DNA from: Actinomycetospora endophytica
GTDB taxonomy: Bacteria > Actinomycetota > Actinomycetes > Mycobacteriales > Pseudonocardiaceae
DNA: 64,000 bases
Reading direction: 5' to 3'
Assembly: GCF_021026375.1 (NCBI RefSeq)
Contig: NZ_JAJNDB010000004.1
Span: 186,001-250,000, forward strand
The notes under the pieces were generated by a model. The model was not told the DNA's origin. It saw only the letters and a list, made by a program, of their open reading frames with translations, and ran no database searches. Positions 44,436 to 64,000 of the stretch are shown here, one piece after another. How positions within the stretch are numbered: the first letter of the stretch is position 1; every line of letters begins with the position of its first letter. The position numbers and the translations under genes were made by a program.

Positions 44436-46841
44436 TCAGGCCGGCCGGACGAGCAGCGCCACGGGGTAGCGGGCGAGCAGGTCGGACAACCGCGGCGCCG
44501 ACCCCTCGACCGGGGTACCGGTGACCATGTCGGTCCAGTCGGCGGCGCCGCCGGGCAGCGGGAGCACGGTGTCCCGCCAGCCCCCGTCCGCCTCGAGCCC
44601 CGCCGGCAGCCGGGTCGCCACGGCCACCATGTGCTCGCGCCCCGCGGGCCCGCCGCGCGCGAACGCCACCGCGTGCTCGGCGGCCGGGCCGGAGACGGGC
44701 ACCGGGGCGTACCCCCAGAACAGCTCGGGCCGGAACCGCCGCAGCCGCAGGCCCGCCGCCGTGACGAGCAGCTTGGTGCCGCGGACGTCGTCGGATTCCG
44801 GGTCGTCGCTCTCGCCGGGCAGCCAGCCCCCGTCGAGCCGCGCCAGCAGTTCCCGACGGCGGGTGAAGTCGACCGGGCGGCGGTTGTCCGGGTCGACGAG
44901 CGAGTACTCGAACAGCTCGGTGCCCTGGTAGACGTCCGGCACCCCGGGCCCGGCGAGCTGCAGCAGCTTCTGACCGAGGGCGTTGGACCGGCCGAAGCGG
45001 TCGATCAGCCGCACGAACGCCTCGATGTCGGCGACGGTCTCCCGGGATCCGAGCACCGCCGCGGGCCACGCGGCGATCGCCTCGTCGACCTCCGGCACCG
45101 GATCGACGTGCGAGGTGACGAGCTTGGCCTCCTTCGCCGCCTTCGTCAGGTAGCCGCCCAGCCGCTCCGCGGTCAGCGGCCACGCGCCCACCACGGACTG
45201 CCACGCCAGCAGCTCCAGCGACGGTGACGGCAGCGGGTGCCGGGCCGAGAGCTTGCGCAGGAACGCGCCCCACTCCGCGGTGAGCTCCGAGAGCACCGCG
45301 AGGCGGGCCCGCACGTCCTCGGAGCGCTTGGTGTCGTGGGTGGAGAGCGTGGTCATCGCGGCCGGCGACGACGCGTCGCGGCGGGCGTTCGCGGCGTGGA
45401 ACTCCGCGGGCGTCACGCCGAAGCGGTCGGGTGCCCCGCCGACCTCGTTGAGCGCGACGAACCGGTTCCACCGGTAGAAGGTGGTGTCCTCGACGCCCTT
45501 GGCGGTGACCATCCCGCTGGTCTGCTCGACGCGGCGGGTCAACTCGCGGTCCGGGTCGGCCAGCATCGCGGTGCGGATCCGCCGGATCACGTCCGCGAGC
45601 TCGGGGCGGGCGGCCGACGCCGTGTCCACCGCCCGCTCGAGGTCGGCCCGGCCCTCGGGCAGGTAGGAGCGGTACACCGGGTAGGCACCCAGCAGCTCGG
45701 CCACGGCATCACGGACGACCTCGGGCTCGTCGCCCGCCGCGGGCACGAGGGCCGCGATCCGCCGGACCTCCGCGACCAGGATCTCGTCGGTGACCAGCCG
45801 CTTCGCCGCGTGCTCGGCCACCGACAGCCGCTCCCGCGTGCCGGTGTGCTCGGCCGCCACCTGCTCGACCAGCGACTCCCCGCGCGGATCCACGAAGAGC
45901 CCGCACAGCTCGCGGAGCGCGTCGTAGCCGGTGGTGCCGTCGGTGGGCCAGGACGCGGGGAGTGCCTCGGTGGTCCCGTCGGCGCGCTGCGAGGTGATCT
46001 TCTCGACGAGCAGCCACGCCTCCTCGCCCAGACCGGTCTCCGCCAGCCGGGCGCGCAGCCGCCGCAGGTACGCCCCGGGCGCGGTGAGCCCGTCCGGATG
46101 GTCGATGCGCAGCCCACTGATCACGTCCGGGTCGGCCGCGACCCAGCGCAGCACCTCGGCGTGCGTGGCGTCGAAGACCGCCGGGTCGTCGACGCGGACG
46201 GCCGCGAGGTCGGAGACGTCGAAGAACCGCCGGTAGGTCAGCTCGGCGTTGCCGCGGCGCCAGTGCACGAGCCGGTAGTGCTGCCGCTCGTGCACCTCCT
46301 GCGCGGTGCCCTCGCCCGTGCCGGGCGCCACCGGGAAGCGGTGCTCGTAGTAGCGCAGCTCGCTGCGGTCCTCGGACAGCGACAGCTGGGCCACGTCCTC
46401 GGGCGAGCCCAGCACCGGGACGAGGAGGGGGACGCCGAGGTCGACGTCGTACCAGGACGCGTACGCCGACCCGCTCCCGTCGCGGAGCAGGGACCACCAC
46501 GACGGGTTGGCGGCGGGCACCGCGACGCCCATGTGGTTCGGCACCAGGTCGAGCAGCGCCCGCATCCCGGCCTCGCGCAGCGCGGCGACCAGGGCGACCC
46601 GCCCGGGCTCGCCGCCGATCTCGTCGTTCGCGTGGGTCGGGTCGACGACGTCGTACCCGTGCGTCGACCCCGGCGCGGGCTGCAGCAGCGGCGAGCAGTA
46701 CAGGGCGCCGACCCCGAGCTCGGCCAGGTAGGGCACCAGCTCGGTCGCCGCCGCGAGGTCCTGGGCCGGAGAGAGTTGCAGTCGGTAGGTGGAGGCAGGA
46801 ACGCGCAGCGAAGCGGAGCCGGACCCGACAGGTGAGTTCAC
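44436..46841 (-). CDS. treY: Maltooligosyl trehalose synthase TreY
   Basis: 801 residues, GH13. PASTYRLQLSPAQDL and YLAELGVGALYCSPLLQP open the barrel. DLVPNHMGV, then GLRIDHPDGL with the nucleophile Asp (about 238), WLLVEKIT with the Glu, and TTLSTHDTKRSEDVRAR with the third Asp are the TreY signatures. It turns the reducing-end alpha-1,4 bond of maltodextrins into alpha,alpha-1,1. GTG start 2 bp after the treX stop, with the ribosome binding site inside treX, so the pair is coupled. Product goes to TreZ, encoded at 35.3 kb. Confidence 0.95.
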   Translation of the reverse strand: MNSPVGSGSASLRVPASTYRLQLSPAQDLAAATELVPYLAELGVGALYCSPLLQPAPGSTHGYDVVDPTHANDEIGGEPGRVALVAALREAGMRALLDLVPNHMGVAVPAANPSWWSLLRDGSGSAYASWYDVDLGVPLLVPVLGSPEDVAQLSLSEDRSELRYYEHRFPVAPGTGEGTAQEVHERQHYRLVHWRRGNAELTYRRFFDVSDLAAVRVDDPAVFDATHAEVLRWVAADPDVISGLRIDHPDGLTAPGAYLRRLRARLAETGLGEEAWLLVEKITSQRADGTTEALPASWPTDGTTGYDALRELCGLFVDPRGESLVEQVAAEHTGTRERLSVAEHAAKRLVTDEILVAEVRRIAALVPAAGDEPEVVRDAVAELLGAYPVYRSYLPEGRADLERAVDTASAARPELADVIRRIRTAMLADPDRELTRRVEQTSGMVTAKGVEDTTFYRWNRFVALNEVGGAPDRFGVTPAEFHAANARRDASSPAAMTTLSTHDTKRSEDVRARLAVLSELTAEWGAFLRKLSARHPLPSPSLELLAWQSVVGAWPLTAERLGGYLTKAAKEAKLVTSHVDPVPEVDEAIAAWPAAVLGSRETVADIEAFVRLIDRFGRSNALGQKLLQLAGPGVPDVYQGTELFEYSLVDPDNRRPVDFTRRRELLARLDGGWLPGESDDPESDDVRGTKLLVTAAGLRLRRFRPELFWGYAPVPVSGPAAEHAVAFARGGPAGREHMVAVATRLPAGLEADGGWRDTVLPLPGGAADWTDMVTGTPVEGSAPRLSDLLARYPVALLVRPA

Positions 46842-46843
46842 GA

Positions 46844-49060
46844 TCAGGCGTCCGTGCGCTGCAGGAGGAGCATCGAGCGGGCGGTGACGGTGAGCGTCTC
46901 GCCCCCGCCGAGGGTCTCGAGACTCTCGGGGAGCTCGTCCACCGTGGTCACCGCCGAGGTCCGGGCCGTCCCGACGACGACGCTGCCGGTCACGGTGTCG
47001 AGCACCGTGCCCCACCGGTCGGCCACCCCCGAGCCGGGCAGCGTGACCTTCACGTCCTCGTAGTGGGCGTTGAAGACCAGCAGGAACGAGTCGTCGACGA
47101 CCCGCTGGCCCCGCTGGTCGGACTCCGCGATGCCCTCGCCGTTGAGGAACACGGTCACGACGGAGGCCGCGCCGCCCTCCCAGTCCTCGTCGCCCATCTC
47201 CTCGCCGGAGGAGGTGAACCACGCGATGTCGCGCTGGTAGTCGTCGTCGGTCCCGGCCTGGCCGGGGGCCGCGGGCCGGATGGTGCGGCCGTTGAAGAAG
47301 CGGCGTCGTCGGAAGACCGGATGCGCCGCGCGCAGCGCCGACACCAGCCCGGTGTAGGCCATCAGGTCCTGGTCGGCCTTCTCCGGCGTCCACTCCATCC
47401 AGGAGATCTCGGAGTCCTGGCAGTAGCCGTTGTTGTTGCCGCCCTGGGTACGGCCCATCTCGTCGCCGTGCAGCAGCATCGGGACGCCCTGCGAGAGGAA
47501 CAGCGTGGCGAGGAAGTTGCGCCGCTGCCGCTGCCGGAGCGTCAGGACGGCCTCGTCGTCGGTGGGGCCCTCGACGCCGCAGTTCCAGGAGTTGTTGTCG
47601 TCGGCGCCGTCGTGGCCGCCCTCGCCGTTGGCCTCGTTGTGCTTCTCGTTGTAGGAGACGAGGTCGGCCAGGGTGAACCCGTCGTGCGCGGTGACGAAGT
47701 TGATCGACGCGTACGGCCGGCGCCCGTCGTCCTGGTAGAGGTCGCTCGATCCCGTCAGCCGCGACCCGAACTCGCCGAGCGTGCCGGGGGTGCCGCGCCA
47801 GAAGTCGCGCACGGTGTCGCGGTACTTGCCGTTCCACTCGGTCCACCCGGGCGGGAAGTTGCCCACCTGGTAGCCGCCCGGCCCGACGTCCCACGGCTCG
47901 GCGATGAGCTTGACCTGCGAGATCACCGGGTCCTGCTGGACGAGGTCGAAGAACGTGGACAGCCGGTCGACGTCGTAGAACTCCCGGGCTAGCGTCGAGG
48001 CGAGGTCGAACCGGAAGCCGTCGACGTGCATCTCGGTGACCCAGTACCGCAGCGAGTCCATGATCAGCTGCAGGGTGTGGGGCTGCCGGACGTTGAGCGA
48101 GTTCCCGGTGCCGGTGTAGTCCATGTAGTACTGCGGGTCGTCGTCGACCAGCCGGTAGTACGCCTGGTTGTCGATGCCGCGCATGGACAGCGTCGGGCCC
48201 TGGTGGTTGCCCTCGGCGGTGTGGTTGTAGACGACGTCGAGGATCACCTCGATGCCCGCGGCGTGCAGGTCGCGCACCATCGCCTTGAACTCCTGCACCT
48301 GGGCGCCGGGCGCGGGTGCCCCCGTCGGCCCCGGGCTCGCGTAGCCGAAGTGCGGCGCGAAGAACGCGATCGTGTTGTAGCCCCAGTAGTTGCGCAGCCC
48401 GCGCTCGATCAGCGCGTCGTCGTGCACGAACTGGTGCACCGGCATGAGCTCGATCGCGGTGACCCCGAGCCGCTGCAGGTGCGAGACCGTCGCCGGGTGC
48501 GCGACCGCCGAGTAGGTGCCGCGCATCTCCTCCGGGATGTCCGGGTGCAGGTACGTCAGGCCCTTGACGTGGGCCTCGTAGATCACCGTCTCGTGGTACG
48601 GCGTGCGGGGCGGCCGGTCGTCATGCCAGTCGAAGAACGGGTTGACGACGACGGCCTTGGGCAGGTGCTGCGCCGAGTCGTCGTGGTTGACCTCGTCGGC
48701 GTTCTCGAAGTGGTAGCCGAACAGCGACTCGTCCCACCCGTAGGTGATGCCGAGCGACCCGTCGACCGCCTTGGCGTAGGGGTCGATGAGCAGCTTGTGC
48801 GGGTTGCAGCGCAGGCCCTGCTCGGGCTCGAGGGGCCCGTCGACGCGGTAGCCGTAGCGCTGACCGGGCACGACGCCGGGCAGGTAGCCGTGCCAGACGA
48901 AGCCGTCGCGCTCCGGCAGGGCGACGGCGTGCTCGGTGCCGTCGGCGTCGAAGAGGCAGAGCGTGACCGCGGACGCCACCTCGCTGAACAGCGCGAAGTT
49001 CGTCCCGGCGCCGTCGTACGTCGCGCCGAGGGGGTAGGACGTGCCCGGCCAGGGCTGCAT
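46844..49060 (-). CDS. treX: Glycogen debranching enzyme TreX/GlgX
   Basis: 738 residues. The N-terminal CBM48-like domain ([20 protein letters not shown]) is followed by the GH13 barrel: [29 protein letters not shown] with the nucleophile Asp, [20 protein letters not shown] with the acid Glu, and [19 protein letters not shown] with the third Asp. It hydrolyses alpha-1,6 branches of glycogen, supplying linear maltodextrins to TreY. ATG 49060 with AGGAG 5 nt upstream. With treY downstream it forms the treXY operon. Confidence 0.95.
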
Positions 49061-52243: not shown

Positions 52244-52663
52244 TCAGGTCACGTCCACCCGTCCGTCGGCGACCCGGACCGCCCGGGGTGTCAGTCCCCG
52301 TTCCGCCGGCCCCTGCGCGACGCTGCCGTCGGCCAGGTGGAACCGGCTGCCGTGGCAGGGGCAGTTGATGGTGCCGTCCGCGACGGCGTTCACCGCGCAG
52401 CCCTGGTGCGGGCAGGTGGTGCCGAACGCGGTGAACGTGCCGGCGACCGGCTGGGCGACCACCGCGCCCTGGCCGGCGAGGACGACGCCACCACCCACGG
52501 GCACATCCGATGTCGCGACGCTCACCGGCAAGGTCGGTGCCGGCGCCGCCGCCCCGTTGCCGTACTCCGCGCACCCGGCGAGCCCGAGGGCCGCCAGTCC
52601 CGCGCAGCCGGTCAGGAGGACGGTGCGCCTGCCCGGCGTGAAGGGCGCCTCCCCGGCCGTCAC
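52244..52663 (-). CDS. Rieske [2Fe-2S] lipoprotein
   Basis: 139 residues. RRTVLLTGCAGLAALGLAGC (about 12-31) looks like a Tat-type signal ending in a lipobox (LAGC), fitting export of a folded iron-sulfur protein. The cluster ligands are complete: CPHQGCAV (about 76-83) and CPCHGSRFHL (about 93-102), i.e. CxH and CxxH. It should pass electrons on the outer face of the membrane. GTG start overlaps the stop of the upstream membrane protein (GTGA), so the two probably work together. Partner oxidoreductase unknown. Confidence 0.9.
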   Translation of the reverse strand: MTAGEAPFTPGRRTVLLTGCAGLAALGLAGCAEYGNGAAAPAPTLPVSVATSDVPVGGGVVLAGQGAVVAQPVAGTFTAFGTTCPHQGCAVNAVADGTINCPCHGSRFHLADGSVAQGPAERGLTPRAVRVADGRVDVT

Positions 52664-53280
52664 AGGTGCACGCCCTGGTCGGTGAAGAGCCAGAGTGCAG
52701 CCGTCAACCACAGCACGATCAGCGCGCCGAAGACGAGCCCGCCGACGACGGGCAGCGTCCACCCCGGCAGCCCGCGACGGGGCAGACAGAGCATCTTGGT
52801 CACGAAGGCGCCGTAGAACAGGCACCCGGCCACCGAGTGCAGGAGGACCCGGGTGCGGTCGTACTCGAAGCCGAGGGCGTAGAGGCAGTGGACGACGACC
52901 GGCACGGTGAGCAGCACCGCCGCCCGCCCGGCCCAGCGGTGCACGGACGGGGCCCACGCCGGCGACCAGTTCCCCAGCCGTCCGTACATCGCCTGCGCCG
53001 TCAGCAGCTGCACGACGGCGAGCAGCGCGGCCGCCGTCGTCAGCCACGCCTTCACGTACGCCGGGCCGGAGAAGCCGGCGACGTCGACCGCGATCGCGCC
53101 CGGCTCGTGGAGCCGGCCGTAGACGCCGAGCGCCACGGCGACCCCGACGCCGGCCACGACCGGCACCAGGAGCCCCGCGCGCCCAGTGGCGACGGCGGCG
53201 GCGGGGAAGGGGCCCACGGGACCGGTCGGCGGCTCGTCGTCGGCGGTCGCGCCGGCGGACCCGGGCTCGGTGGTGCTCAT
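52660..53280 (-). CDS. DUF6529-type multi-pass membrane protein
   Basis: 206 residues, five to six membrane segments. Histidines sit at helix ends in APSVHRWAGRAAVLLTVPVV, VHCLYALGF and RVLLHSVAGCLFYGAF, as in small b-type cytochromes. The overall pattern fits the DUF6529 group, which is often next to Rieske proteins in actinobacteria. It probably binds haem and exchanges electrons with the coupled Rieske lipoprotein; this is an inference. ATG 53280, 23 bp after the upstream gene. Confidence 0.75.
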   Translation of the reverse strand: MSTTEPGSAGATADDEPPTGPVGPFPAAAVATGRAGLLVPVVAGVGVAVALGVYGRLHEPGAIAVDVAGFSGPAYVKAWLTTAAALLAVVQLLTAQAMYGRLGNWSPAWAPSVHRWAGRAAVLLTVPVVVHCLYALGFEYDRTRVLLHSVAGCLFYGAFVTKMLCLPRRGLPGWTLPVVGGLVFGALIVLWLTAALWLFTDQGVHL

Positions 53281-53303
53281 CGGGGCTCCTCGGGTTCCGC
53301 TGG

Positions 53304-53948
53304 TCAGGACGTGGCGAGCACGTCGGTGGACCCGTCCACGGGCACGACCCCGGCCGGGAGCGGGCCGTCGAGCGGGAGCGGGGGCGCCGGGCTGACCGCG
53401 CCGGTCCCGTCGTGGCTCAGCCCCACCTGGCCGCCGTCGCCGCGCACGATCCATCCGGTGGTCCGGCCGTTGCCGCCCGACCGGTAGATGCCGGCCTGCG
53501 TACCGGTGGCGGGTGCGGCCGTGAACGACGCGTCCGGCCGTCCGGCGAGCGAGACCGTGCCGGTGAGCCGGCCGCCGTCGAGACGGCCGGTCATGTGGTT
53601 GCCGTGACGGCCGGTGCCGTCGACCGCGTCCGTCGTGGCGCCGCCCTGCAACCACGCCTCGGTCTGATGGCCGTCGCAGACGTAGGCCTTGCTCCGGTCA
53701 CCGTCGACGGTGACCGCGATCGGGATGCTGGCGCCCTGGGACGTCACGTCCCCGACGTAGCGCACCCGCCCGGCCGGGAAGCTCTCCGGGGCCGGGGCGG
53801 CGGCCGGTGCCGGAGCGGCGCTCACCGCGGGGACCGCGGCCGGGGGCGCCGGCGGTGCGGCCGGGTGCTGGACGGCCATGTCCACGCCGACCAGCACCAG
53901 TCCGAGCACGACGACGGCCGCGAGCGTGACGAAGGGTGAGCGGACCAT
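53304..53948 (-). CDS. Secreted or anchored hypothetical protein
   Basis: 214 residues. A hydrophobic N-terminal segment (PFVTLAAVVVLGLVLVGVDM, about 5-24), then an Ala/Pro-rich linker and a beta-rich domain (ESFPAGRVRYVGDV ... AYVCDGHQTEAW ... GNHMTGRL ... TGTVSLAGRPDASF) with one visible Cys. No known domain. ATG with GGGAGGG 4 nt upstream. It is the first gene of the Rieske operon, whose promoter carries the GAGTAG palindrome. Function unknown. Confidence 0.7.
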   Translation of the reverse strand: MVRSPFVTLAAVVVLGLVLVGVDMAVQHPAAPPAPPAAVPAVSAAPAPAAAPAPESFPAGRVRYVGDVTSQGASIPIAVTVDGDRSKAYVCDGHQTEAWLQGGATTDAVDGTGRHGNHMTGRLDGGRLTGTVSLAGRPDASFTAAPATGTQAGIYRSGGNGRTTGWIVRGDGGQVGLSHDGTGAVSPAPPLPLDGPLPAGVVPVDGSTDVLATS

Positions 53949-53984: not shown

Positions 53985-54028
53985 ATTGTTCGAGCGCCGG
54001 AGCCGGGGCACCCGAGTAGTCGCTACTC
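53985..54028 (-). promoter_or_regulatory. GAGTAG operator and promoter of the Rieske operon
   Basis: The palindrome GAGTAG-tcg-CTACTC (54014-54028) is followed on the minus strand, after exactly 23 nt, by AACAAT (53990-53985), an nAnnnT -10 hexamer. A 30-nt leader then leads to ATG 53948. An extra half-site CTACTC lies at 54045-54050. Same geometry as the boxes at 56950 and 62305. Confidence 0.75.
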
Positions 54029-54276
54029 GGTTGCCGGTCGAGGACTACTCGATCTCGGAATGGGATCAGAAACGGACGTTCGAGCCCGAACAGGTCGTAT
54101 CAGCATTCATTCGGACAATTCCCATGAGCATATTTACGTAGTCGACTACGGTCGACCTGACGCCTTTCCTGCGCCACTGTGTGCCTCCGGAGTCGGTCGG
54201 CTCGACCAGGACCGGTTCCCAACCACCCGTGCGGGGGCTGTGGTGGTTCCTACCGCCGTAGCCCGGGGAGCAGGGG
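54029..54276. promoter_or_regulatory. Control region of the LAL regulator, AT-rich for this genome
   Basis: Between the Rieske operon promoter and ATG 54277. It holds a CTACTC half-site (54045-54050), the dyad GTTCG-agcc-CGAAC (54078-54091) and a perfect 14-bp palindrome CGTAGTCGACTACG (54137-54150) inside an AT-rich stretch (about 54095-54136). No gene is convincing here. The regulator may control its own expression from these sites. Confidence 0.5.
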
Positions 54277-56922
54277 ATGGGTCGACAGTGGCCGTTCGTG
54301 GGCCGCGAGCGGGAGCTGGCCGCGGTGCGCAAGGCGCTCGACGACGCCCATCTCACCGGCGTCGTTCTCGTCGGCCCGCCCGGGGTGGGGAAGACCCGCC
54401 TGGCCCGCGCCGTCGCCGACCGCGCGGAGGCGGGGGGCGCCGCGGTGCGGTGGGTGATGGCCACCCGTTCCGCGTCCGGCATCCCGCTCGGCGCGATGGC
54501 CCAGCTGCTGGCGAGCTGGGAGGGCCCGGGCGCCCACGCCGTCCACCTGCTGCCCCACACCGCGCGGCACCTCGTCGAGGGCGCCGGCGGGCGCCGGCTG
54601 CTGCTGGCCGTCGACGACGCCCATCTCCTGGACTCGACGTCGACCGCCCTGATCCACCACATGGCCGTGACGGGGGCGGCCACCGTCGTCGTGACCGCCC
54701 GCACCGGCGTGACCGTGCCCGACCCGATCTTCGCGCTCTGGAAGGAAGGGCTGGCCGAGCGCATCGACATCCACGGGCTCGCGCGCACGCAGGCCGACGA
54801 GCTGGTGCGTCAGGTGCTCGGGGGCCAGGTCGACGGCGCCACCCTGCACCACCTCTGGGAGCTCAGCCTGGGCAACACCCTGTTCCTGCGCGAGCTCGTC
54901 GAGGGCGGGCTCTCCAGCGGCGCGCTCGCGCTCGACGACGTCTGGCGCTGGAACGGGCCGCTGGTCCCGTCGCCCCGGTTGACCGAGGTCATCGACGCCC
55001 GGATGGGCTCGCTCGAGCCCGACGAGCAGACCGTCCTGGAGCTGCTGGCGTTCGGTGAGCCGCTCGGGTCGGACACCCTGGAGCGCCTCGTCGGCTCCGA
55101 GGCGCTGTCCGCGGTGGAGCGCAAGGGCCTGATCGTCTCCGAGCGTCTCGACCGCCGGGTGGAGCTGCGCCTGGCCCACCCGCTCTACGGGGAGGTGCTG
55201 CGTCAGCGCACCTCGCCCCGGCGCGAGAAGTCCCTCTACCGGCAGCTGGCCGAGTCGCTCGAGGAGTCGGGGGTGCGCCGCTCCGGGGACCGCCTCCGCG
55301 CGGTGACCTGGCGGCTGGCTGCGGGGCTCCCCACCGACGCGGAGATGCTGCGGGTCGCCGCGGAGCACACCATGAAGGTCGACTTCCGGGCGGCCGAGCG
55401 GCTCAGCCGCGCCGCGGTGGAACAGGGCGGCGGCTATCCGGCGTCGGTCGTCCTCGGGCAGGTACTCATCGGCCTGGGTCGCTCGGCCGAGGCGGAGGAC
55501 CTCTTCGCCGGGCTGTGGTTCCGCGCCGACACCCCGGAGCGCCGCACCCAGCTGGCCGTCACCCGGGTGGCCAACCTCTACTGGGGCCTGGGGCGGCCGG
55601 GACGGGCGGCCACGGTGCTGCGCGACCTCGGATCGGATCTCACCGAGGAGCCCTCGGCGCCCGAGCTGGTCACGCTCGAGTCCGCCCTCTCCCCGCCCTA
55701 CGACGGCGCCGAGCAGGCCCTCGACCTGGCCGGGAACCTGCTGGGCCCCGACGGCGCGGTCGACGCCACGGCGCTGCAGGCGGTCGCCGTCGCGTCCGAC
55801 GCCCTGCGCCGGGCCGCCCGCTACGACACCAGCGAACGGGTGGCCGAGCGGGCCCGCGAGGCGATCGAGGGTGCCTCGACACCGCTCGCCGCGGCGCGGG
55901 CGCTGCTGCAGCTCGACACCGGCCGGTGCGAGTCCCACGTGTTCACCGGCCGGCTCGACGAGGCCGAGCGGCTGGCCCGGGCCGGGTACCAGAGCGCGGT
56001 CGCCGACGGCCGCGCGACGGCGAAGGCCCTCTACGCCGGCTGGCTCGGCGTGACGGCGGGCCTGCGCGGCACGATGCGCACCTCGCTGCACTGGCTGCGC
56101 GACGCCACGGCCGGTCTACGTCCCGACGCCCTTCCCCTGCTCGCCGTGATGTGGTGCGGGATCCTCCAGTCGGCGGTGGCGACCGGCGACCTCGAGGCCG
56201 CGTCGGGCGCGTCACGGCAGCTGCAGCGGGTGCTCAGCGAGGGCGGGAACGCCTACGCCCCGTGGGCCGGGCTGGCCCCGGTGTGGATGGCGGTGGCGGG
56301 CGGCCGGCTCCAGGAGGCCGAGCGGGCGTGCCTGGCCGCCGCGGACCACGCCGAGCGCGACGGCTTGCTGCCCGCCCATCTCGAGGCGCTGCACACCGCG
56401 GTCCGGCTCGGCACGACGGTGCCGCTGGCGGACCGGCTGGAGTCGGCGGCCTCCGGGGCCGAGGGCGAGCTGGTCGTCGCGTACGTCGACCATGCCCGGG
56501 CCCACGCCAAGGGCGACGCCGAGGCCCTGGACGAGGTCGCGAGCCGGTTCGCCGGCCTCGGCACCCACCTGCTGGCCGCCGAGGCGGCGGCCCAGGCGTG
56601 CCAGCTGCACCGGGCGCGCGGGGGCCGTGGCGCCGGGAACGCCGCCGCCCTGCGCGCCCGCGGGTGGGCCGAGGAGTGCGAAGGCGCGCGCACCCCGGCC
56701 ATCGCGGACCTCGACTCCGCCTCGGAACTGACGCGGCGCGAGCACGAGATCGCCGCACTCGCGGCCTCGGGACTGACCAGCCGGGCCATCGCGGAGCAGC
56801 TCGTGGTCTCGGTGCGCACCGTCGACAACGTGCTGCACGTGGTCTACAGCAAGCTCGGACTGAGCGGTCGTCGCGACCTCGCATCCGTGGTCAGCAGGGG
56901 GAGTAGGGAGTTCTCCGAGTAG
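54277..56922 (+). CDS. LAL-type LuxR regulator with STAND ATPase (IniR-like)
   Basis: 881 residues. The N-terminal ATPase has FVGRERELAAVRKAL, Walker A VGPPGVGKTRLA (about 32-43) and Walker B LLLAVDDAHLL (about 108-118). A long TPR-like helical region (about 300-790) and a C-terminal LuxR HTH (about 815-875: ELTRREHEIAALAASGLTSR then VVSVRTVDNVLHVVYSKLGL) follow. Such proteins are ligand-triggered ATP-dependent activators; mycobacterial iniBAC is reported to be under a similar regulator, IniR. ATG with GGGGAG 7 nt upstream. It lies between two operons whose promoters share GAGTAG palindromes, so it is the likely binder. Its last codon plus stop (GAG TAG) is itself a half-site. Confidence 0.88.
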   Translation: MGRQWPFVGRERELAAVRKALDDAHLTGVVLVGPPGVGKTRLARAVADRAEAGGAAVRWVMATRSASGIPLGAMAQLLASWEGPGAHAVHLLPHTARHLVEGAGGRRLLLAVDDAHLLDSTSTALIHHMAVTGAATVVVTARTGVTVPDPIFALWKEGLAERIDIHGLARTQADELVRQVLGGQVDGATLHHLWELSLGNTLFLRELVEGGLSSGALALDDVWRWNGPLVPSPRLTEVIDARMGSLEPDEQTVLELLAFGEPLGSDTLERLVGSEALSAVERKGLIVSERLDRRVELRLAHPLYGEVLRQRTSPRREKSLYRQLAESLEESGVRRSGDRLRAVTWRLAAGLPTDAEMLRVAAEHTMKVDFRAAERLSRAAVEQGGGYPASVVLGQVLIGLGRSAEAEDLFAGLWFRADTPERRTQLAVTRVANLYWGLGRPGRAATVLRDLGSDLTEEPSAPELVTLESALSPPYDGAEQALDLAGNLLGPDGAVDATALQAVAVASDALRRAARYDTSERVAERAREAIEGASTPLAAARALLQLDTGRCESHVFTGRLDEAERLARAGYQSAVADGRATAKALYAGWLGVTAGLRGTMRTSLHWLRDATAGLRPDALPLLAVMWCGILQSAVATGDLEAASGASRQLQRVLSEGGNAYAPWAGLAPVWMAVAGGRLQEAERACLAAADHAERDGLLPAHLEALHTAVRLGTTVPLADRLESAASGAEGELVVAYVDHARAHAKGDAEALDEVASRFAGLGTHLLAAEAAAQACQLHRARGGRGAGNAAALRARGWAEECEGARTPAIADLDSASELTRREHEIAALAASGLTSRAIAEQLVVSVRTVDNVLHVVYSKLGLSGRRDLASVVSRGSREFSE

Positions 56923-56994
56923 TTCCCGGACGCGCTCGGGGTGAAAGCCGAGTAGCGCGCTACTCAGGACTCCCGGCGCCGGACCGCCAACACT
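56901..56994 (+). promoter_or_regulatory. GAGTAG operator array and promoter of the repeat/dynamin operon
   Basis: Half-sites GAGTAG at 56901 and 56917 precede the palindrome GAGTAG-cgcg-CTACTC (56950-56965). One nt later GGACTC may be a weak -35, and AACACT (56989-56994) lies exactly 23 nt after the palindrome as -10. Transcription would start near 57001. Confidence 0.75.
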
Positions 56995-57225
56995 TCTCGT
57001 CAGGACGGCGTCGGCGCGAGCGTCGATGAGGGATTCGCACCATCGAGGCCGGCCTGACACGCAGTTCCAGCAGGACCCGAGGGACCTCTCGGCGCGACCA
57101 GGTGTCGCTGCGCGAGGTCCCGACCAGGCGGACACAGGGTCCGCCCGACGCACTTCGAAGACCCGGCCTCGCCGGGAGGGAACGACAACCAGGCCGGCGA
57201 GGCCGGCGGACAAGGAGAAGGAACC
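56995..57225 (+). other. Long leader of the repeat/dynamin operon
   Basis: About 225 nt between the predicted start site and GTG 57226, GC-rich with self-complementary GCCGGCgagGCCGGC near 57193-57210 and a good ribosome binding site (AAGGAGAAGG) before the start. No clear gene. It could hold a post-transcriptional control element. Confidence 0.4.
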
Positions 57226-58622
57226 GTGAACGTGGACGGTCGGATCGTGGACCAGCACAACGGCGGCGGTGCCGGCGGTGGCGGGGACATCAACCAGGGC
57301 GGAGACGTCTTCGGCGACGAGGGCGGCGCCGGCAACATCGACGGCCGCATCGTGGACCAGCACAACGGCGGGCTCGGTGGTGGCGGGGACGTGAACCAGG
57401 GTGGGGACGTCTTCGGTGGTGAGGGCGGGGTCGGCAACGTCGACGGCCGCATCATCGACCAGCACAACGGTGGTCTCGGCGGTGGCGGCGGCGACGTGAA
57501 CCAGGGCGGCGACGTCTTCGGTGGTGGCCGCGGGGTCGGGAACGTGGACGGCCGGATCGTGGACCAGCACAACGGCGGGCTCGGTGGTGGCGGTGACGTC
57601 AACCAGGGCGGGGACGTCTTCGGTGGTGAGGGCGGGGTCGGCAACGTCGACGGCCGCATCATCGACCAGCACAACGGCGGGGCCGGCGGCGGCGGGGACA
57701 TCAACCAGGGTGGCGACGTGTTCGGCGCCGGTCGTGGGACGAACGTCGATGGCCGGATCGTGGATCAGCACAACGGTGGTCTCGGTGGTGGCGGCGGTGA
57801 CGTGAACCAGGGTGGCGACGTGTTCGGCGCGGGCCGTGGGACGAACGTCGACGGTCGGATCGTGGATCAGCACAACGGTGGTGCCGGTGGTGGCGGTGAC
57901 GTCAACCAGGGCGGGGACGTCTTCGGTGGTGGCCGCGGCGCGGGCAACATCGATGGCCGCATCGTCGACCAGCACAACGGCGGCGCCGGTGGCGGTGGCG
58001 ACATCAACCAGGGTGGCGACGTGTTCGGCGCCGGCCGTGGGACCAATGTCGACGGTCGGATCGTGGATCAGCACAACGGTGGTGCCGGTGGCGGCGGGGA
58101 CGTCAACCAGGGCGGGGACGTCTTCGGTGGTGGCCGCGGCGCGGGCAACATCGACGGCCGCATCGTCGACCAGCACAACGGCGGCGCCGGTGGCGGCGGG
58201 GACGTCAACCAGGGCGGGGACGTCTTCGGTGGTGGCCGCGGCGCGGGCAACATCGACGGCCGGATCGTCGACCAGCACAACGGCGGCGCCGGTGGCGGTG
58301 GCGACATCAACCAGGGTGGCGACGTGTTCGGCGCCGGCCGTGGGACCAATGTCGACGGCCGCATCGTCGACCAGCACAACGGTGGTGCCGGTGGCGGCGG
58401 GGACATCAACCAGGGTGGCGACGTGTTCGGCGCCGGCCGTGGGACCAATGTCGACGGTCGCATCGTCGACCAGCACAACGGCGGTGGCGCCGGCGGTGGC
58501 GGCGACGTCAACCAGGGCGGCGACGTCTTCGGTGGCGGTCGCGGCACCAACGTCGACGGACGTATCACCGACCAGCACAACGGCGGCGCCGGCGGCGGTG
58601 GCGACGTCAACCAGGGCGGCGA
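57226..58622 (+). repeat. In-frame ~108-bp tandem repeats inside the Gly-rich gene
   Basis: Fourteen units of about 102-111 bp, several identical over long stretches (for example the units around 57890-58000, 58090-58200 and 58190-58300). Length changes are in multiples of three. High identity points to expansion by slippage or gene conversion. Confidence 0.9.
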
Positions 58623-58917
58623 CGTCTTCCGGGCGGCGCCGCAGCACCAGGGCGGCGGCGGGGGCCACTTCCAGGGCCCGCCGAAGCACCAGGAGCACCA
58701 GCAGCACGACGGCGGTCACCACGACGGCGGCGGGCACGAGCAGCTCAACGTCGACCACCGGATCACCGACCAGCACAACGGCGGGCACGACGGCGGCCAC
58801 CAGGAGCAGCAGCACCACGAGGAGCCGGTGTTCCACGAGCACGAGGCGGCCCACGCCGACCACGGTGGCGACCACGGTGACCACCACGCCCCGGTGGACC
58901 ACGGCCACCACGGCTGA
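57226..58917 (+). CDS. Gly-rich protein of 14 near-identical ~36-residue repeats with His-rich tail (IniB position)
   Basis: 563 residues. Residues 1-465 are 14 full copies of a repeat with consensus N(V/I)DGRI(V/I)DQHNGG, then GGGGD(V/I)NQGGDVFG and a variable GGRG(A/T)(G)N linker. A partial copy (VDHRITDQHNGG) appears at about 508-519. Residues 480-563 are His/Gln/Asp/Glu-rich (HHDGGGHEQ, HEHEAAHADHGGDHGDHH), a probable metal-binding tail. No signal peptide or membrane segment. Regular strand-turn spacing with Asn/Gln/Gly ladders suggests a beta-solenoid or amyloid-like fold. It occupies the place of iniB before two dynamin-like genes but has no recognisable IniB domain. GTG start after AAGGAGAAGG. 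DNA copies are nearly identical, implying recent expansion. Confidence 0.85.
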   Translation: MNVDGRIVDQHNGGGAGGGGDINQGGDVFGDEGGAGNIDGRIVDQHNGGLGGGGDVNQGGDVFGGEGGVGNVDGRIIDQHNGGLGGGGGDVNQGGDVFGGGRGVGNVDGRIVDQHNGGLGGGGDVNQGGDVFGGEGGVGNVDGRIIDQHNGGAGGGGDINQGGDVFGAGRGTNVDGRIVDQHNGGLGGGGGDVNQGGDVFGAGRGTNVDGRIVDQHNGGAGGGGDVNQGGDVFGGGRGAGNIDGRIVDQHNGGAGGGGDINQGGDVFGAGRGTNVDGRIVDQHNGGAGGGGDVNQGGDVFGGGRGAGNIDGRIVDQHNGGAGGGGDVNQGGDVFGGGRGAGNIDGRIVDQHNGGAGGGGDINQGGDVFGAGRGTNVDGRIVDQHNGGAGGGGDINQGGDVFGAGRGTNVDGRIVDQHNGGGAGGGGDVNQGGDVFGGGRGTNVDGRITDQHNGGAGGGGDVNQGGDVFRAAPQHQGGGGGHFQGPPKHQEHQQHDGGHHDGGGHEQLNVDHRITDQHNGGHDGGHQEQQHHEEPVFHEHEAAHADHGGDHGDHHAPVDHGHHG

Positions 58918-58921
58918 TCAG

Positions 58922-58934
58922 GCCCGCTTCGGGC
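58922..58934 (+). other. Small hairpin between repeat gene and iniA-like gene
   Basis: GCCCG-ctt-CGGGC in the 51-bp gap. It may attenuate read-through, so that the repeat protein is made in excess over the GTPases. Confidence 0.4.
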
Positions 58935-58968
58935 AGCACGGCTGAAAGACCGGAAGAAGGAGCAGCAG

Positions 58969-60810
58969 GTGTCGGGTACCGGTGTCCAGTTCGCGGCAGA
59001 GACCCTCGACCTCGCGGTCAAGGGAGCCACCGCCTACGAGCGGGAGGACCTCGTCCAACGACTGACCGGTGCCCGGCACCTGCTGTCCGACAACGCCGTC
59101 ACGGTGTACGTCGTCGGGGAGTTCAAACAGGGGAAGAGCTCGTTGATCAACGGGCTGCTGACCGCACCGGTCTGCCCGGTGGACGACGACATCGCCACGG
59201 CGGTCCCCACGAAGGTCGGTTACTCGCAGCAGGTGCGTGCGGTGGCGAGCTTCGAGTCCGCGGCCGGGAACGAGGCCTCCCCCTGGCAGGAGGAGGTCCC
59301 GGTCGCGGAGATCGCCTCGTACGTGACCGAGCGCGGGAACCCCGGCAACCACCGGCGCCTGCGCTCGGTCACCGTCGGCATCGACCGCCCGCTGCTCGCC
59401 TCCGGGCTGACCCTCGTCGACACCCCCGGTGTCGGCGGGCTGGGATCGGTCCACAACGCCGTGACCGTCGGCTCCCTGCCGCAGGCCCACGCCGTCGTGT
59501 TCGTCTCGGACGCCTCGCAGGAGCTGACGGCGGCCGAGATCCGGTTCCTGCGGACGGTCAAGGAACTGTGCCCGACGATCGTCTTCGTCCTCACCAAGAC
59601 CGACCTGTACCCGGAATGGAAGCGCATCCGGGACATCGACGTCGAGCACCTGGCGCGGGCCGGCCTCTCGGTCGACGTGCTCGAGGTGTCCTCCGAGCTC
59701 CGCAACACCGCGGCCGCCGCGGGCGACCAGGAGCTCAACGTCGAGTCCGGCTTCCCCCCGCTGGTCCAGCGCCTCCAGGACATCGTGCGCGACGCCGAGC
59801 GCGTCGCGCTCCGCTCCGTCGGCAGCCACGTCCTCTCGGTGGTCGGCCAGCTCGAACCGGCGTTGCAGTCGCGCGCCGCCTCCCTGACGACCCCGCAGCG
59901 GTCCGCGGCCCTCGTCGCCGATCTCACCCGGGCCCGGGAGCGCGCCGAAGCGCTGCGCGAGCGGTCGTCGCACTGGCAGCAGGTGCTCTTCGACGGGTTC
60001 GCCGACATCAGCTCCGACATCGACTTCGACCTGCGCCAGCGTTCCCGCGAGGTGCTCCACGACGCCGAGAAGGCGATCGACGAGGGCGACCCGGCCAAGG
60101 ACTGGCCGGGTTTCGAGCAGTGGATGCGCCAGCGGCTGGCCGGGGAGGCCCTCGAGAACTACGGCCAGTTCGCGCGCCGGGCCCGGGAGCTCGCCGAGCG
60201 GGTCGCCGAGCAGTTCGACCTCGCCGCCGACCAGGCGGTCGCGCCCGTCGGGATCGCGGCGCCGGTCGAGGTGATCGAGGAGATCGACATCGACTCGTCG
60301 TTCAGCATCGCGCCGAAGAAGTTCGCCGGCGGGATGGCCGGCTTCCAGAAGGCCTACGGCGGCTTCATGATGTTCACGCTGCTGACCCACATGGCGGCCA
60401 TCGCGCTGCCGGGCCCCGTGGGTCTGGGGCTCGGCCTGCTCATGGGCAAGTCCGGTCTGGGCGAGGAGCGCAAGCGCCAGCTGGAGAAGCGCCGGGCCGG
60501 TGCCAAGGCGGCCGTGCGCCGGTTCGTCGACGAGTTCAACCTGCAGGTCGGCAAGGACTCCCGGGACGCCCTGCGGCGCATCCAGCGCGAGATGCGCGAC
60601 GCCTACACCCGCCGGGCCGAGGAGCTGCAGCGCTCGACCAAGGACGCGCTCGCCGCGGCCCAGAAGGCGGTCACCAGCAGCGAGGCCGAGACCGACGAGC
60701 TCGCGCGGCTGCAGTCGGACCTCGAGTCGTTCGCCATGGTCCGCGACCGCGCCCGGGAGGTCCTCGCGCACGCGAGCCGGCCCGCGGTGACCTCGGCGGG
60801 CAGCCGATGA
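58969..60810 (+). CDS. iniA: Dynamin-like GTPase, IniA-like
   Basis: 613 residues. G1 VVGEFKQGKSSLINGLL (about 48-64), a G2 Thr region (DDIATAVPTKV), G3 LVDTPGVGGLG (about 149-159) and G4 VLTKTDLYPEW (about 204-214) form a complete dynamin-family GTPase. Long helical stalk segments follow, then a hydrophobic paddle-like stretch (FMMFTLLTHMAAIALPGPVG and GLGLGLLMG, about 463-490) that could insert in the membrane. It matches IniA of mycobacteria in motif order and length; IniA/IniC remodel the inner membrane in envelope stress. GTG start with GGAG 7 nt upstream. It overlaps the next gene by ATGA. Confidence 0.88.
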   Translation: MSGTGVQFAAETLDLAVKGATAYEREDLVQRLTGARHLLSDNAVTVYVVGEFKQGKSSLINGLLTAPVCPVDDDIATAVPTKVGYSQQVRAVASFESAAGNEASPWQEEVPVAEIASYVTERGNPGNHRRLRSVTVGIDRPLLASGLTLVDTPGVGGLGSVHNAVTVGSLPQAHAVVFVSDASQELTAAEIRFLRTVKELCPTIVFVLTKTDLYPEWKRIRDIDVEHLARAGLSVDVLEVSSELRNTAAAAGDQELNVESGFPPLVQRLQDIVRDAERVALRSVGSHVLSVVGQLEPALQSRAASLTTPQRSAALVADLTRARERAEALRERSSHWQQVLFDGFADISSDIDFDLRQRSREVLHDAEKAIDEGDPAKDWPGFEQWMRQRLAGEALENYGQFARRARELAERVAEQFDLAADQAVAPVGIAAPVEVIEEIDIDSSFSIAPKKFAGGMAGFQKAYGGFMMFTLLTHMAAIALPGPVGLGLGLLMGKSGLGEERKRQLEKRRAGAKAAVRRFVDEFNLQVGKDSRDALRRIQREMRDAYTRRAEELQRSTKDALAAAQKAVTSSEAETDELARLQSDLESFAMVRDRAREVLAHASRPAVTSAGSR

Positions 60811-62324
60811 GCCCGGAGGCGACCGGGGTCGTCCCCGCTGTGGGTGCGCTGCTCGCCGAGGCGGTCCGCGTCTACGCCGGCAGCCCGGCCGAGCGGGAGC
60901 TGCGCGCCGTCGCCGCCCGGATCCGCGAGCCGCTGCGCGTCGCGATCGCGGGGCGGGTCAAGGCGGGCAAGTCGACGCTGCTCAACGCGCTCGTGGGCCA
61001 GGAGCTGGCCGCGACGGACGCGGGGGAGTGCACCCGGCTCGTGACCTGGTACGTGGACGGCACCGCCTACCGCGTCGACCTCCAGCCCTACCGCGGGGCT
61101 CCCCGGCAGCTGCCGTTCCGGCAGCGCCACGGCTCCCTCGACATCGACCTCGGGGACGTCCGTGCCGAGCAGGTCGAGCGCCTGATCGTCACCTGGCCCT
61201 CGCCCATGCTGCGGCGGACCACGCTGATCGACACCCCAGGCATCGGGTCGGTGAACACCGAGGTCTCGGACCGCAGCGAGCGCGTCCTGGCCCCCGAGGA
61301 CGGCGAGGTGACGGCCGCCGACGCCGTCGTCTACCTGATGCGCCACGCGCACGGCGACGACGTCCGGTTCCTCGAGGCCTTCCGCGACGGCGCGGTCGAC
61401 CGCCGCACCGTCAACACCATCGCGGTGCTCTCGCGCTGCGACGAGATCGGGCACGCGCGCCCGGACGCGCTCACCACCGCGGCGCGGATCGCGGACCGCT
61501 ACCGGCTCGACCCGCGGGTCCGCGCCCTCTGCCAGACCGTCGTCCCGGTCGCCGGGCTGCTGGCCTCCTCCGCCGCGTCGTTGCGCGAGGCGGAGTACCG
61601 CGCGGTCGTCGCGCTCGCGGCCGCCGAGGACACCGACCGGATGCTGCTGTCCGCGGCGCGCTTCGAGAGCGCCGACTCGGACACGGTCTCGACCACCGAG
61701 CGGACCACCCTCCTCGCGCGCTACGGCATGTTCGGCGTGCGCACCGCGATCCGGCTGGTCCGCGAGGGCGGGGTCACCAACGCCACCGACCTGGCGCGGG
61801 AGCTCACCAAGGCCAGCGGCATGCGCGAGCTGCAGCACCTGCTCGCCACGCAGTTCGGCGCCCGGGCCGACGTCCTCAAGGCACGCTCGGCACTCTCGGC
61901 CCTCGACGGCGTGATCCGGCGCCATCCCGTCCCCGCGGCGCGCGGGCTCGTGCACCAGGTGGAGCGGGTCCAGTCCGGCGCGCACGAGTTCGCCGAGATC
62001 GCCCTGATCGACGACCTCCGCAGCCGGCGCGTGCTCCTGCCGGAGTCCGAACTGCACGACGCCGAGCGCCTGCTCGGTGGCGAGGGCATGGACGCCGCCA
62101 CCCGCCTGGGCCTGGACGCCCAGGCCGACGGGGAGACCGTGCGACGCGTGGCGGCCGAGCAGCACCTGCGCTGGCAGCGCCGGGCGGAGAACCCCGCGGC
62201 CACCCGTGAGCGCGCTCAGGCGGCACGCGTGCTCGTCCGGACGTGCGAGGGGATTCTCAGCCGGCGACCCGCTGAGTACTCCGCCGCGGCGCCCGCCCCA
62301 GGGGGAGTAGGGCGCTACTCATGA
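60807..62324 (+). CDS. iniC: Dynamin-like GTPase, IniC-like
   Basis: 505 residues. G1 VAIAGRVKAGKSTLLNALVG (about 47-66), a G2 region GECTRLVTWY, G3 LIDTPGIGSVNT (about 139-150) and a G4 position reading LSRCDEIG (about 208-215) in place of T/NKxD. Helical C-terminal half without an obvious membrane paddle, as in IniC, so it probably works as partner of the IniA-like protein. ATG overlaps the upstream stop. Its last codons (GGA GTA GGG CGC TAC TCA) are at the same time the GAGTAG palindrome controlling the next gene. Confidence 0.87.
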   Translation: MSPEATGVVPAVGALLAEAVRVYAGSPAERELRAVAARIREPLRVAIAGRVKAGKSTLLNALVGQELAATDAGECTRLVTWYVDGTAYRVDLQPYRGAPRQLPFRQRHGSLDIDLGDVRAEQVERLIVTWPSPMLRRTTLIDTPGIGSVNTEVSDRSERVLAPEDGEVTAADAVVYLMRHAHGDDVRFLEAFRDGAVDRRTVNTIAVLSRCDEIGHARPDALTTAARIADRYRLDPRVRALCQTVVPVAGLLASSAASLREAEYRAVVALAAAEDTDRMLLSAARFESADSDTVSTTERTTLLARYGMFGVRTAIRLVREGGVTNATDLARELTKASGMRELQHLLATQFGARADVLKARSALSALDGVIRRHPVPAARGLVHQVERVQSGAHEFAEIALIDDLRSRRVLLPESELHDAERLLGGEGMDAATRLGLDAQADGETVRRVAAEQHLRWQRRAENPAATRERAQAARVLVRTCEGILSRRPAEYSAAAPAPGGVGRYS

Positions 62325-62349
62325 CTTCCCGCCCCGCTGATCGCAGGGT
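62274..62349 (+). promoter_or_regulatory. GAGTAG operator and leaderless promoter of the second repeat-protein gene
   Basis: GAGTAG-ggcg-CTACTC (62305-62320) is followed after 1 nt by TGACTT and, exactly 23 nt from the palindrome, by CAGGGT (62344-62349), which ends 6 nt before GTG 62356. A degenerate fused site GAGTACTC lies 31 bp upstream (62274-62281). The operator overlaps the iniC-like 3' end. Confidence 0.75.
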
Positions 62350-62355
62350 GGAACC

Positions 62356-64000
62356 GTGAGCGAACAGGGAGGTGACGGCCCCGCCGACCGGGCCATCCGG
62401 GCGGTGGAGGGCGTGCGCGCCGTCGAGGCCGCGACCGAGGGTGGCGCGACGCCGCCGACCCGGTGGCAGGCCCACGCGCCGCTGCTCAAGCTCGCGGGCG
62501 CCGTCGGAGCCGCCGCGTACGCCGCCGGAGTGGGGTACGGCCTGTCCGAGGGGACCGCATCGGCCGAGCTGGTCGACCACCAGACCCCGCTCGGCCCGGG
62601 CGACGGCCCCGCCGCGGGAGCGGACGGCCCCGGGCCGGCCGGAGGCGGACCGGGCGACCCGGGCGGTCCCGGGCCGGGGGCGCCGGGTGCACCGGGCGGC
62701 GCCGAGGGCGGCGGTCACGTCACGGTCGAGCAGGAGGTCGGCGGGGCGGGGGTGACCCCGGACCACGTCTCGAGCTCGGTCGGGCACGGCGCCGACGGCT
62801 CCGTCGTCGCGAGCGTCTCCAGCAGCTACCACGTCGGCGGCTCCGGAGGCGCGCAGCACGGCGGGGGCGGCCCGACCGGTCGCGGCCACGAGGGCGGCGG
62901 ACAGTCCGGGGCCGGCCAGCAGGGCGGGCACGACGACGGCGGGATTCTCGTCCAGCAGTACGAGACGGTCGTCGTCAAGGAGGACGCCGCGGGGAACTTC
63001 GTCGTCGACAGCCACCTCGTCGTCGTCGTGCACTACGGCGGGCACGAGTACAGCTACGACGGCCACGACGTCTACACCGTGAGCCCCTCCGAGCACGCCG
63101 ACCTGGTGGTGCACCAGCACGAGGACGTCGTCGTCCACGAGCGGCCGGACGGCAGCTACTCGGTCGCCGTCGACGCCCACACGACGGTCGCCGTCGTCCC
63201 CGACACCGACGGCCACTTCGACGCGAACGTCACCCAGGAGGAGTCGACCACCGCCGACGGCGGGCACGGCCACGGGCAGGGCCACGGCGACGGGCACCTG
63301 ACCACCGACCAGTACGAGGGCGCGGACGACCGCGGCGGGCACGGCACGATCACCCAGATCGAGCACACCGACGGCCACGGCACGCAGACCGAGGACGCGG
63401 ACGGCCGCGGCACCGGGGACGTCACCCAGGACCAGGACGGCGGCGACGGCGTCGACCAGACCCAGAACGCCGACACCCGCGACGGCGGGCACACCACCCA
63501 GAACCAGTCCGGCGGCAAGGGCTCGCACCAGGAGCAGAACGACGACGGCCGCGGTGGGCGGGGGAGCTCGCAGAACCAGAGCGGCGGCAAGGGTTCGCAC
63601 CAGACCCAGAACGCCGACGACCGCGGCGGCGGCCGCTCGACCCAGAACCAGTCCGGCGGCAAGGGCTCGCAGCAGGAGCAGAACGCGGACGACCGCGACG
63701 GCGCGGGGAGCTCCCAGAGCCAGGCCGCCGGGCGGGGCTCGCACCAGGAGCAGAACGCCGACGACCGCGGCGGCGGCGCGGGCACCCAGAGCCAGACCGC
63801 CGGGGCCGGGTCGCAGCAGTCGCACCGCCTCGACGAGCGCGACCTCCCGACCGGGACCCCCGGCGGCACCCCGGTCCCGACGACGACGGGTGCGGCTCCC
63901 GTCGGCGCGGCCGGCGCCGGGGCGCCGGTGGAGGCCGCGAACGGAGCGGTCGCCGCGGCCGCGACCGGGCTGGACACGGCCGGAACCGGCGCGGCGGCCC
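62356..64000 (+). CDS. Second repeat-rich protein of the ini-like locus (3' end outside window)
   Basis: The first 548 residues are visible. One hydrophobic segment (LLKLAGAVGAAAYAAGVGYG, about 47-66) is preceded by a helical N-terminus. A Gly/Pro linker (80-115) and a Val/His-rich strand region (about 190-290: VVVKEDAAGNFVVDSHLVVV, VYTVSPSEHADLVVHQHEDV) follow. About five ~24-residue repeats (about 375-495) read TQNQSGGKGSHQEQN then A/D DRGG. The Q-x-Q-x-G-G-x-G-S-x-Q-x-Q-N ladder recalls curlin-type amyloid repeats. An Ala/Pro/Gly-rich region continues past the window. Leaderless GTG start behind its own GAGTAG promoter. Possibly an envelope scaffold; no family recognised. Confidence 0.75.
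   Translation, partial: MSEQGGDGPADRAIRAVEGVRAVEAATEGGATPPTRWQAHAPLLKLAGAVGAAAYAAGVGYGLSEGTASAELVDHQTPLGPGDGPAAGADGPGPAGGGPGDPGGPGPGAPGAPGGAEGGGHVTVEQEVGGAGVTPDHVSSSVGHGADGSVVASVSSSYHVGGSGGAQHGGGGPTGRGHEGGGQSGAGQQGGHDDGGILVQQYETVVVKEDAAGNFVVDSHLVVVVHYGGHEYSYDGHDVYTVSPSEHADLVVHQHEDVVVHERPDGSYSVAVDAHTTVAVVPDTDGHFDANVTQEESTTADGGHGHGQGHGDGHLTTDQYEGADDRGGHGTITQIEHTDGHGTQTEDADGRGTGDVTQDQDGGDGVDQTQNADTRDGGHTTQNQSGGKGSHQEQNDDGRGGRGSSQNQSGGKGSHQTQNADDRGGGRSTQNQSGGKGSQQEQNADDRDGAGSSQSQAAGRGSHQEQNADDRGGGAGTQSQTAGAGSQQSHRLDERDLPTGTPGGTPVPTTTGAAPVGAAGAGAPVEAANGAVAAAATGLDTAGTGAAA

Follow-up and report, generated by a model that had tools for sequence, protein, structure and literature searches.

Which protein reads the three GAGTAG-N3/4-CTACTC palindromes around a LAL-type regulator gene of Actinomycetospora endophytica, and to what effect? 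From sequence, we predict that they are likely the operators of this regulator (encoded at 54277), which would use them for class-II activation of three units: an iniB-iniA-iniC operon, a repeat gene with an Hsp70-like gene, and a DUF6529/Rieske unit. Plain coordinates refer to the window, by which we mean the whole stretch of 64,000 nucleotides that was analysed. The palindromes and their upstream half-sites are:

54014..54028, minus strand: operator 1 (N3), directed toward the DUF6529/Rieske genes; a one-mismatch copy with the same −10 occurs in L295
54045..54050, minus strand: upstream half-site of operator 1, CTACTC
56901..56922, plus strand: upstream half-sites of operator 2, GAGTAG at 56901 and at 56917
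56950..56965, plus strand: operator 2 (N4), ahead of the iniB-iniA-iniC operon, 27 nt past the regulator's stop codon
62274..62281, plus strand: fused upstream half-sites of operator 3, GAGTACTC, likewise found in L289
62305..62320, plus strand: operator 3 (N4), within the 3' end of iniC, ahead of the repeat gene and the Hsp70-like gene

All three palindromes are exact and lie where the preliminary description of this DNA had put them, and the extra half-sites that it listed at 54045, 56901 and 56917, as well as the fused GAGTACTC at 62274, are present. No exact palindrome arose in 100 dinucleotide shuffles of the window, compared to three in the real sequence. The whole genome (G000, 6,980,350 bases in 17 contigs) contains four exact copies, three of them in the window, where composition leads one to expect about 0.17; the many copies elsewhere that would have spoken against a regulon are not there. 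With up to one mismatch, the genome has eight sites in total (four added), compared to 27 for a reversed control.

In the fourth exact copy (C13:97103), the Glu-stop ends of a converging gene pair overlap, and the LAL regulator's own stop codon forms part of the half-site at 56917. Both fit a reading in which the palindromes terminate transcription or arise where Glu-stop codons (GAG TAG) happen to overlap as genes end. We find this hardly credible, since the genes on either side of operator 1 diverge, no T-run follows any of the three palindromes, and the offset to the −10, described below, is kept at linked sites and not at others.

The genes of the predicted regulon are:

52244..53047, minus strand: open frame with a Rieske [2Fe-2S] protein, overlapping the DUF6529 frame
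52660..53487, minus strand: open frame with a DUF6529 protein (Pfam DUF6529, 3.2e-71)
53304..53948, minus strand: uncharacterised protein, the first gene read from operator 1
54277..56922, plus strand: LAL-type regulator, 881 aa, with an N-terminal AAA_16 ATPase and a C-terminal LuxR/GerE helix-turn-helix
57226..58917, plus strand: glycine-rich repeat protein in the iniB position; IniB N-terminal domain not found
58969..60810, plus strand: iniA, dynamin-like GTPase (Pfam Dynamin_N, 6e-22)
60807..62324, plus strand: iniC, dynamin-like GTPase (Pfam Dynamin_N, 2.1e-11)
62356..64000, plus strand: repeat-rich gene, 734 aa, extending beyond the window
L005:2574-4643: Hsp70-like gene, 689 aa, following the repeat-rich gene beyond the window end

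The iniA product matches the solved IniA (isoniazid-inducible protein, PDB 6j72) with an E-value of 9.3e-105 and, as in iniBAC, the two dynamin-like GTPases IniA and IniC are encoded side by side. Another hallmark, the IniB N-terminal domain (NF038175), gave no match in the 57226-58914 product or in that of the repeat gene at 62356, whereas the iniB-placed protein of L146 matched at 4e-20. These two repeat-rich proteins had no NCBIfam match at E 0.01 and no Pfam match at E 0.001, the 62356 protein having been searched up to the window end. The first of them is built from units such as NVDGRIVDQHNGG and DINQGGDVFG. A related Hsp70-like gene is found in 61 of the 79 best named iniA loci (hand count). 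Judged by these matches, the operon is an iniBAC-type dynamin operon with an Hsp70-like gene, two identities absent from the preliminary description. The same genome carries two further iniAC operons (L147, L149), at C1:5106-6944 and C13:551851-553092, each with an IniR-type regulator and an Hsp70-like gene.

On the minus strand, the Rieske frame resembles Rieske proteins in its C-terminal part only (Pfam Rieske, 6.4e-12, residues 179-251). DUF6529 genes within 10 kb of iniA also occur in L137, L188, L206 and L218, loci without a LAL regulator, so this gene arrangement may predate the operator. About 5-10 kb from the regulator locus, at 44436-49060 on the minus strand, lie trehalose-pathway genes, which we take to be TreY-like and TreX-like. 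The response of mycobacterial IniR to trehalose makes a link to them attractive; in the loci scanned, of which many have short flanks, the TreX/TreY genes (44.4-49.1 kb) were seen only in the window and, as TreX alone, in L295, and we do not regard the link as conserved.

The regulator bracketed by the sites had been described as a LAL-type LuxR protein, and its domains bear this out: an N-terminal ATPase with Walker motifs (AAA_16, 1.6e-12, residues 6-130) and, at the far end of a large protein, a LuxR/GerE helix-turn-helix (GerE, 1.3e-10, residues 817-871 of 881). Its gene adjoins the iniAC operon, as that of IniR does. Yet the IniR model NF038181, whose curated cut-off is 750 bits, is absent from the best 25 of its 29 matches up to E 0.01, and in BLASTP against mycobacterial-type IniR (L146) only the helix-turn-helix aligns significantly (33% over 70 aa). 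On these two grounds, similarity confined to the helix-turn-helix and no NF038181 among the matches listed, we reject mycobacterial IniR as its orthologue. A partial match to the AbsR2 model was below the cut-off.

The palindromes stand in a fixed relation to putative promoters, of which the elements in the window are:

53985..53990, minus strand: −10 of promoter 1, AACAAT
56989..56994, plus strand: −10 of promoter 2, AACACT
62321..62326, plus strand: −35 of promoter 3, ATGACT, abutting operator 3
62344..62349, plus strand: −10 of promoter 3, CAGGGT, with a leaderless mRNA start predicted at GTG 62356

The −10-like hexamers AACAAT (minus strand), AACACT and CAGGGT begin at the 24th base after palindromes 1 to 3, respectively. 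An nAnnnT hexamer exactly 23 nt after each palindrome, as first noted, is thus found in three of three cases; such hexamers begin at 1.5% of window positions, so that finding all three at a single offset has a probability of about 3e-6, uncorrected for how that offset was chosen. In the direction of the regulator gene operator 1 has no −10 at the offset, and we discarded autoregulation from this site.

In relatives the 23-nt spacing is kept across genera. Among 18 ini sites, found via the palindrome alone with up to one mismatch, nAnnnT stands at offset 23 in 16, and none of the other offsets between 8 and 44 has it more than twice. TGAC fills positions 2-5 behind the palindrome in 15 of these 18, so that the −35 (aTGACn) immediately adjoins the palindrome and the spacer is 17 nt long. 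The weak −35 proposed earlier is accordingly next to the palindrome, as claimed, but abuts it with a 17-nt spacer instead of lying 1 nt away with a 16-nt one. Within the window TGAC occurs only at the third site, the other two reading AGGACT and GGGTGC. Promoters before repeat/Hsp70 genes lend independent support to the −10 assignment, since in 9 of 16 the start codon follows exactly 6 nt after the −10, the leaderless arrangement.

This geometry is specific to palindromes in a particular genomic context. We classified the 35 exact palindromes of 120 family genomes by one rule, calling a palindrome linked if a LAL or iniA/iniC match lay within 8 kb. Of the 18 linked palindromes, 14 have nAnnnT at offset 23 in one direction, compared to 1 of 17 unlinked ones (Fisher 2e-5). 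Four of the 18 linked palindromes have no −10 at the offset; both sites of L155 are without one, and L082 has a LAL-like match 4.5 kb from its two sites. In a second set of sites, from loci chosen for their LAL genes, 16 of 23 rows have the −10 at the offset (20 sites, some counted in both directions). Rows from relatives are not independent, a number of the loci from Amycolatopsis and Pseudonocardia being closely related.

The half-sites are less regular. Over the 18 ini sites, GAGTAG-like half-sites (up to one mismatch) start eight times at 29-33 nt upstream of the palindrome; others, at 22 nt and between 37 and 58 nt, show that the distance varies.

An operator that abuts or overlaps the −35 at a fixed distance from the −10, as found here, is the layout of class-II activator-dependent promoters. 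A LAL protein bound to the palindromes could also act in the opposite sense, blocking RNA polymerase beside the −35 until a signal releases it, and there is a precedent in the Streptomyces LAL protein SCO6993, which is reported to repress its targets and to bind its own promoter (PMC9628970). We nevertheless consider repression unlikely, since the palindrome lies upstream of the −35 and abuts it at one fixed distance without overlapping the −10, the window's −10 and −35 elements match poorly, as those of activator-dependent promoters would, and mycobacterial IniR is reported to be an activator (PMC5760070).

Conservation of the sites among relatives differs between the three units. Operator 2 has equivalents in the same place in L289, L295, L131 and L151-L153. 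Sites before repeat/Hsp70 genes occur with up to one mismatch in L085, L154-L156, L158, L160, L163, L289 and L300; operator-3-like sites follow iniC in L157 and are found with two mismatches in L162 and L291-L294. Among the nearest congeners, L289 carries operators 2 and 3. The contig of L295 stops shortly afterwards; it carries operator 2 and, with one mismatch, operator 1, whose −10 is again AACAAT. L291, L292 and L294 have three sites each, before an iniB-like gene (one mismatch), iniA (exact) and the repeat/Hsp70 genes (two mismatches), and L293 has sites before iniA and before the repeat/Hsp70 genes; two-mismatch sites of congeners were counted only with the −10 in place. A search for operator 1 with its −10 in place, tolerating up to four mismatches, found nothing in L289 or, ahead of the DUF6529 genes, in L156 and L300. 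Conservation is good for the iniB and repeat/Hsp70 arms of the predicted regulon and weak for the Rieske arm: of the three-operon regulon originally proposed, the former two have sites that are kept in relatives, and the Rieske arm is seen in one congener (L295) but was not found in L289, L156 or L300.

If the palindrome belongs to the LAL regulator, the two should occur together, and they do. We scanned named genomes by IniA alignment and used the best 79 iniA loci. Beside 12 of these (in Amycolatopsis, Pseudonocardia and Actinomycetospora) lies a relative of the window's LAL regulator, and a palindrome with up to one mismatch is present in 10 of the 12, compared to 5 of the 67 other loci (Fisher 1.2e-7). 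The two LAL-type loci without such a site are L161, which has none, and L162, which has the two-mismatch form only; among the five others with a palindrome, L157 is an 8.9-kb contig without a visible regulator. With IniR-type proteins as queries, an IniR-type regulator was found in 51 of the 79 loci and a palindrome in one of these 51 (L183, a metagenome-assembled genome, about 8.5 kb past iniA). Sixteen loci show neither regulator type, four of them with a palindrome, and no locus among the best 79 shows both types. Far from being unconserved, which would have counted against a regulon, the site is predicted by the presence of the regulator. At the mycobacterial-type ini loci L144-L146 we looked for the GAGTAG palindrome and rejected it: there is none at up to one mismatch, and the two-mismatch ones in L145 and L146 lie off the iniA start, L144 having none.

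In a tree of 92 IniA proteins, built by a quick method, the 18 from LAL-type loci form one side of a branch (SH-aLRT 100); this group takes in L157 and L085, whose contigs do not include the regulator. A single LAL-type clade fits a single exchange of regulators. Together with the association of the palindrome with the LAL type (10 of 12) and not with IniR (1 of 51), it indicates that an iniBAC lineage apparently swapped IniR for a different regulator.

The cassette of palindrome and promoter extends beyond ini operons. Across 390 family genomes, palindrome plus −10 occurs at 55 places in 49 genomes, compared to 13 for the reversed pattern (control summed by hand). Under a strict rule of 8 kb, 44 of the 55 places have a LAL gene (25 LAL and ini, 19 LAL only, a few of the latter in loci too short to show ini genes), four have ini genes only and seven have neither; three of the four ini-only places have a LAL C-terminus in the short flank and one is on a cut contig. 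A looser rule that includes matches to the helix-turn-helix alone puts 48 of the 55 near a LAL gene. Outside the window's own genome, 10 of 31 palindromes lie within 3 kb of a LAL gene (E<=1e-60), zones that make up about 0.05% of the sequence. The non-ini places adjoin other LAL genes and precede unrelated genes, e.g. those of a vanadium-chloroperoxidase-like protein and an amidohydrolase, which leaves the regulator as the shared element. For the same reason the sites are not unique to ini operons: the expectation that they would lie before orthologues of these operons and before no others holds in that they cluster at orthologous operons and related LAL genes, and fails in that other LAL genes have them before unrelated operons too.

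A tree of 60 LAL proteins agrees with this. The 22 ini-type proteins fall in one group (20 with a site), all 12 members of a second group have a site, and several other groups have none. Thirteen of the proteins were assigned a site by hand: it lies elsewhere in the locus (one with two mismatches), on a different contig of that genome (L032), or has one mismatch and lacks the −10 (L044).

In A. endophytica itself, a one-mismatch operator with its −10 in place is located at C9:285594-285608 (L097:8595), just past the stop codon of another LAL gene; cross-talk with the regulator encoded by that gene is possible. L091 has one-mismatch operators with a TAnnnT −10 at 12223 and 18851, one about 0.1 kb past a LAL gene and the other 6.6 kb further. 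In the class outside the family, the palindrome-promoter pattern is not in excess (27 places, compared to 24 for reversed controls), although eight of the 27 have a LAL match no more than 1.5 kb away. The same cassette is also conserved in two genomes of family f8 (mycobacterium-like), at L301:9035-9049 ahead of a POT-family transporter and at L302:9439-9453 ahead of a protein with a similar start; in neither 20-kb stretch did we detect a LAL gene of this type.

These distributions also bear on whether some other DNA-binding protein uses the palindrome. That the LAL protein binds it is a prediction from sequence, and the two main LAL groups with sites have different recognition helices (RTVDNVLH and RTVEGHLY), from which a common operator would not be obvious. 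Against a different binder stand two observations: the LAL gene is the gene that ini loci and unrelated site-bearing loci have in common, and the site is nearly always missing where an IniR-type regulator replaces the LAL protein. We therefore judge a different binder very unlikely.

We infer, then, that the LAL regulator binds the palindromes, that it activates rather than represses, and that it answers to envelope stress. As a dimer or a larger ATP-dependent oligomer, it would bind GAGTAG-N3/4-CTACTC, probably assisted by the upstream half-site (22-33 nt away in the window). Placed next to the −35, it would contact the sigma factor and open promoters that are otherwise weak (−10 nAnnnT, 17-nt spacer), which would jointly switch on the iniB-iniA-iniC operon, the repeat gene with the Hsp70-like gene (probably leaderless) and, in this genome, the DUF6529/Rieske unit. 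By analogy with iniBAC, the signal might be some form of cell-envelope stress. MalT acts in its ATP-bound, signal-bound form, and the active form of this regulator would likewise be bound to both.

As for the origin of the locus, we lean towards a single event in which one iniBAC-type lineage, now seen in Actinomycetospora, Pseudonocardia and Amycolatopsis, exchanged an IniR-type for a LAL regulator that brought along the portable operator-promoter cassette of a wider LAL group. With two IniR-type copies and one LAL-type copy in this genome, the same kind of membrane-remodelling module would answer two separate inputs. Modules of the iniBAC type are known mainly from mycobacteria; the locus suggests that they can be rewired to another regulator, and the soil genera that have it are a place to ask which signal calls for bacterial dynamins. 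LAL operators are poorly defined; the one described here, strict and in a fixed geometry to its promoter, is recognisable in the bare sequence and connects regulators with targets throughout the Pseudonocardiaceae.

The closest known system is IniR-iniBAC of mycobacteria (Boot et al. 2017, PMC5760070), where, likewise, one operon encodes the dynamin-like IniA and IniC and a large ATPase-LuxR-type regulator is its neighbour. An Hsp70/dnaK-like gene is nearby in both, in M. smegmatis directly downstream of iniR (PMC5760070). Mycobacterial IniR is a dedicated activator, reported to control iniBAC only (PMC5760070), in contrast to the three promoters predicted here. Mycobacterial iniBAC responds to cell-wall inhibitors, and trehalose has been reported as a cue for IniR (PMC5760070); since the window's regulator is a different protein, these signals are not to be assumed for it. 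The main text of that report contains neither 'palindrom' nor 'binding site', and we recognised no description of a GAGTAG-CTACTC operator among the papers listed on iniBAC/IniR, LAL regulators or AbsR2, which does not prove its absence from print. Thus, while iniBAC-like genes are known, the regulator of this locus is predicted by the curated model not to be IniR and has an apparent operator of its own that we did not find described.

Among LAL (MalT-like) regulators, SCO6993, TpdR and MalT resemble it in being large proteins with an N-terminal ATPase and a C-terminal LuxR-type helix-turn-helix. For the SCO6993 footprints, the authors state that a consensus could not be predicted (PMC9628970), and we rejected the SCO6993/AbsR2 footprints given there as instances of the same motif, since they are not alike. 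The repeat in the TpdR promoter overlaps the −35 (PMC6099782). The reported sites of MalT and TpdR are direct repeats (PMC9628970, PMC6099782), whereas the operator described here is a strict palindrome at one distance from the −10 across genera.
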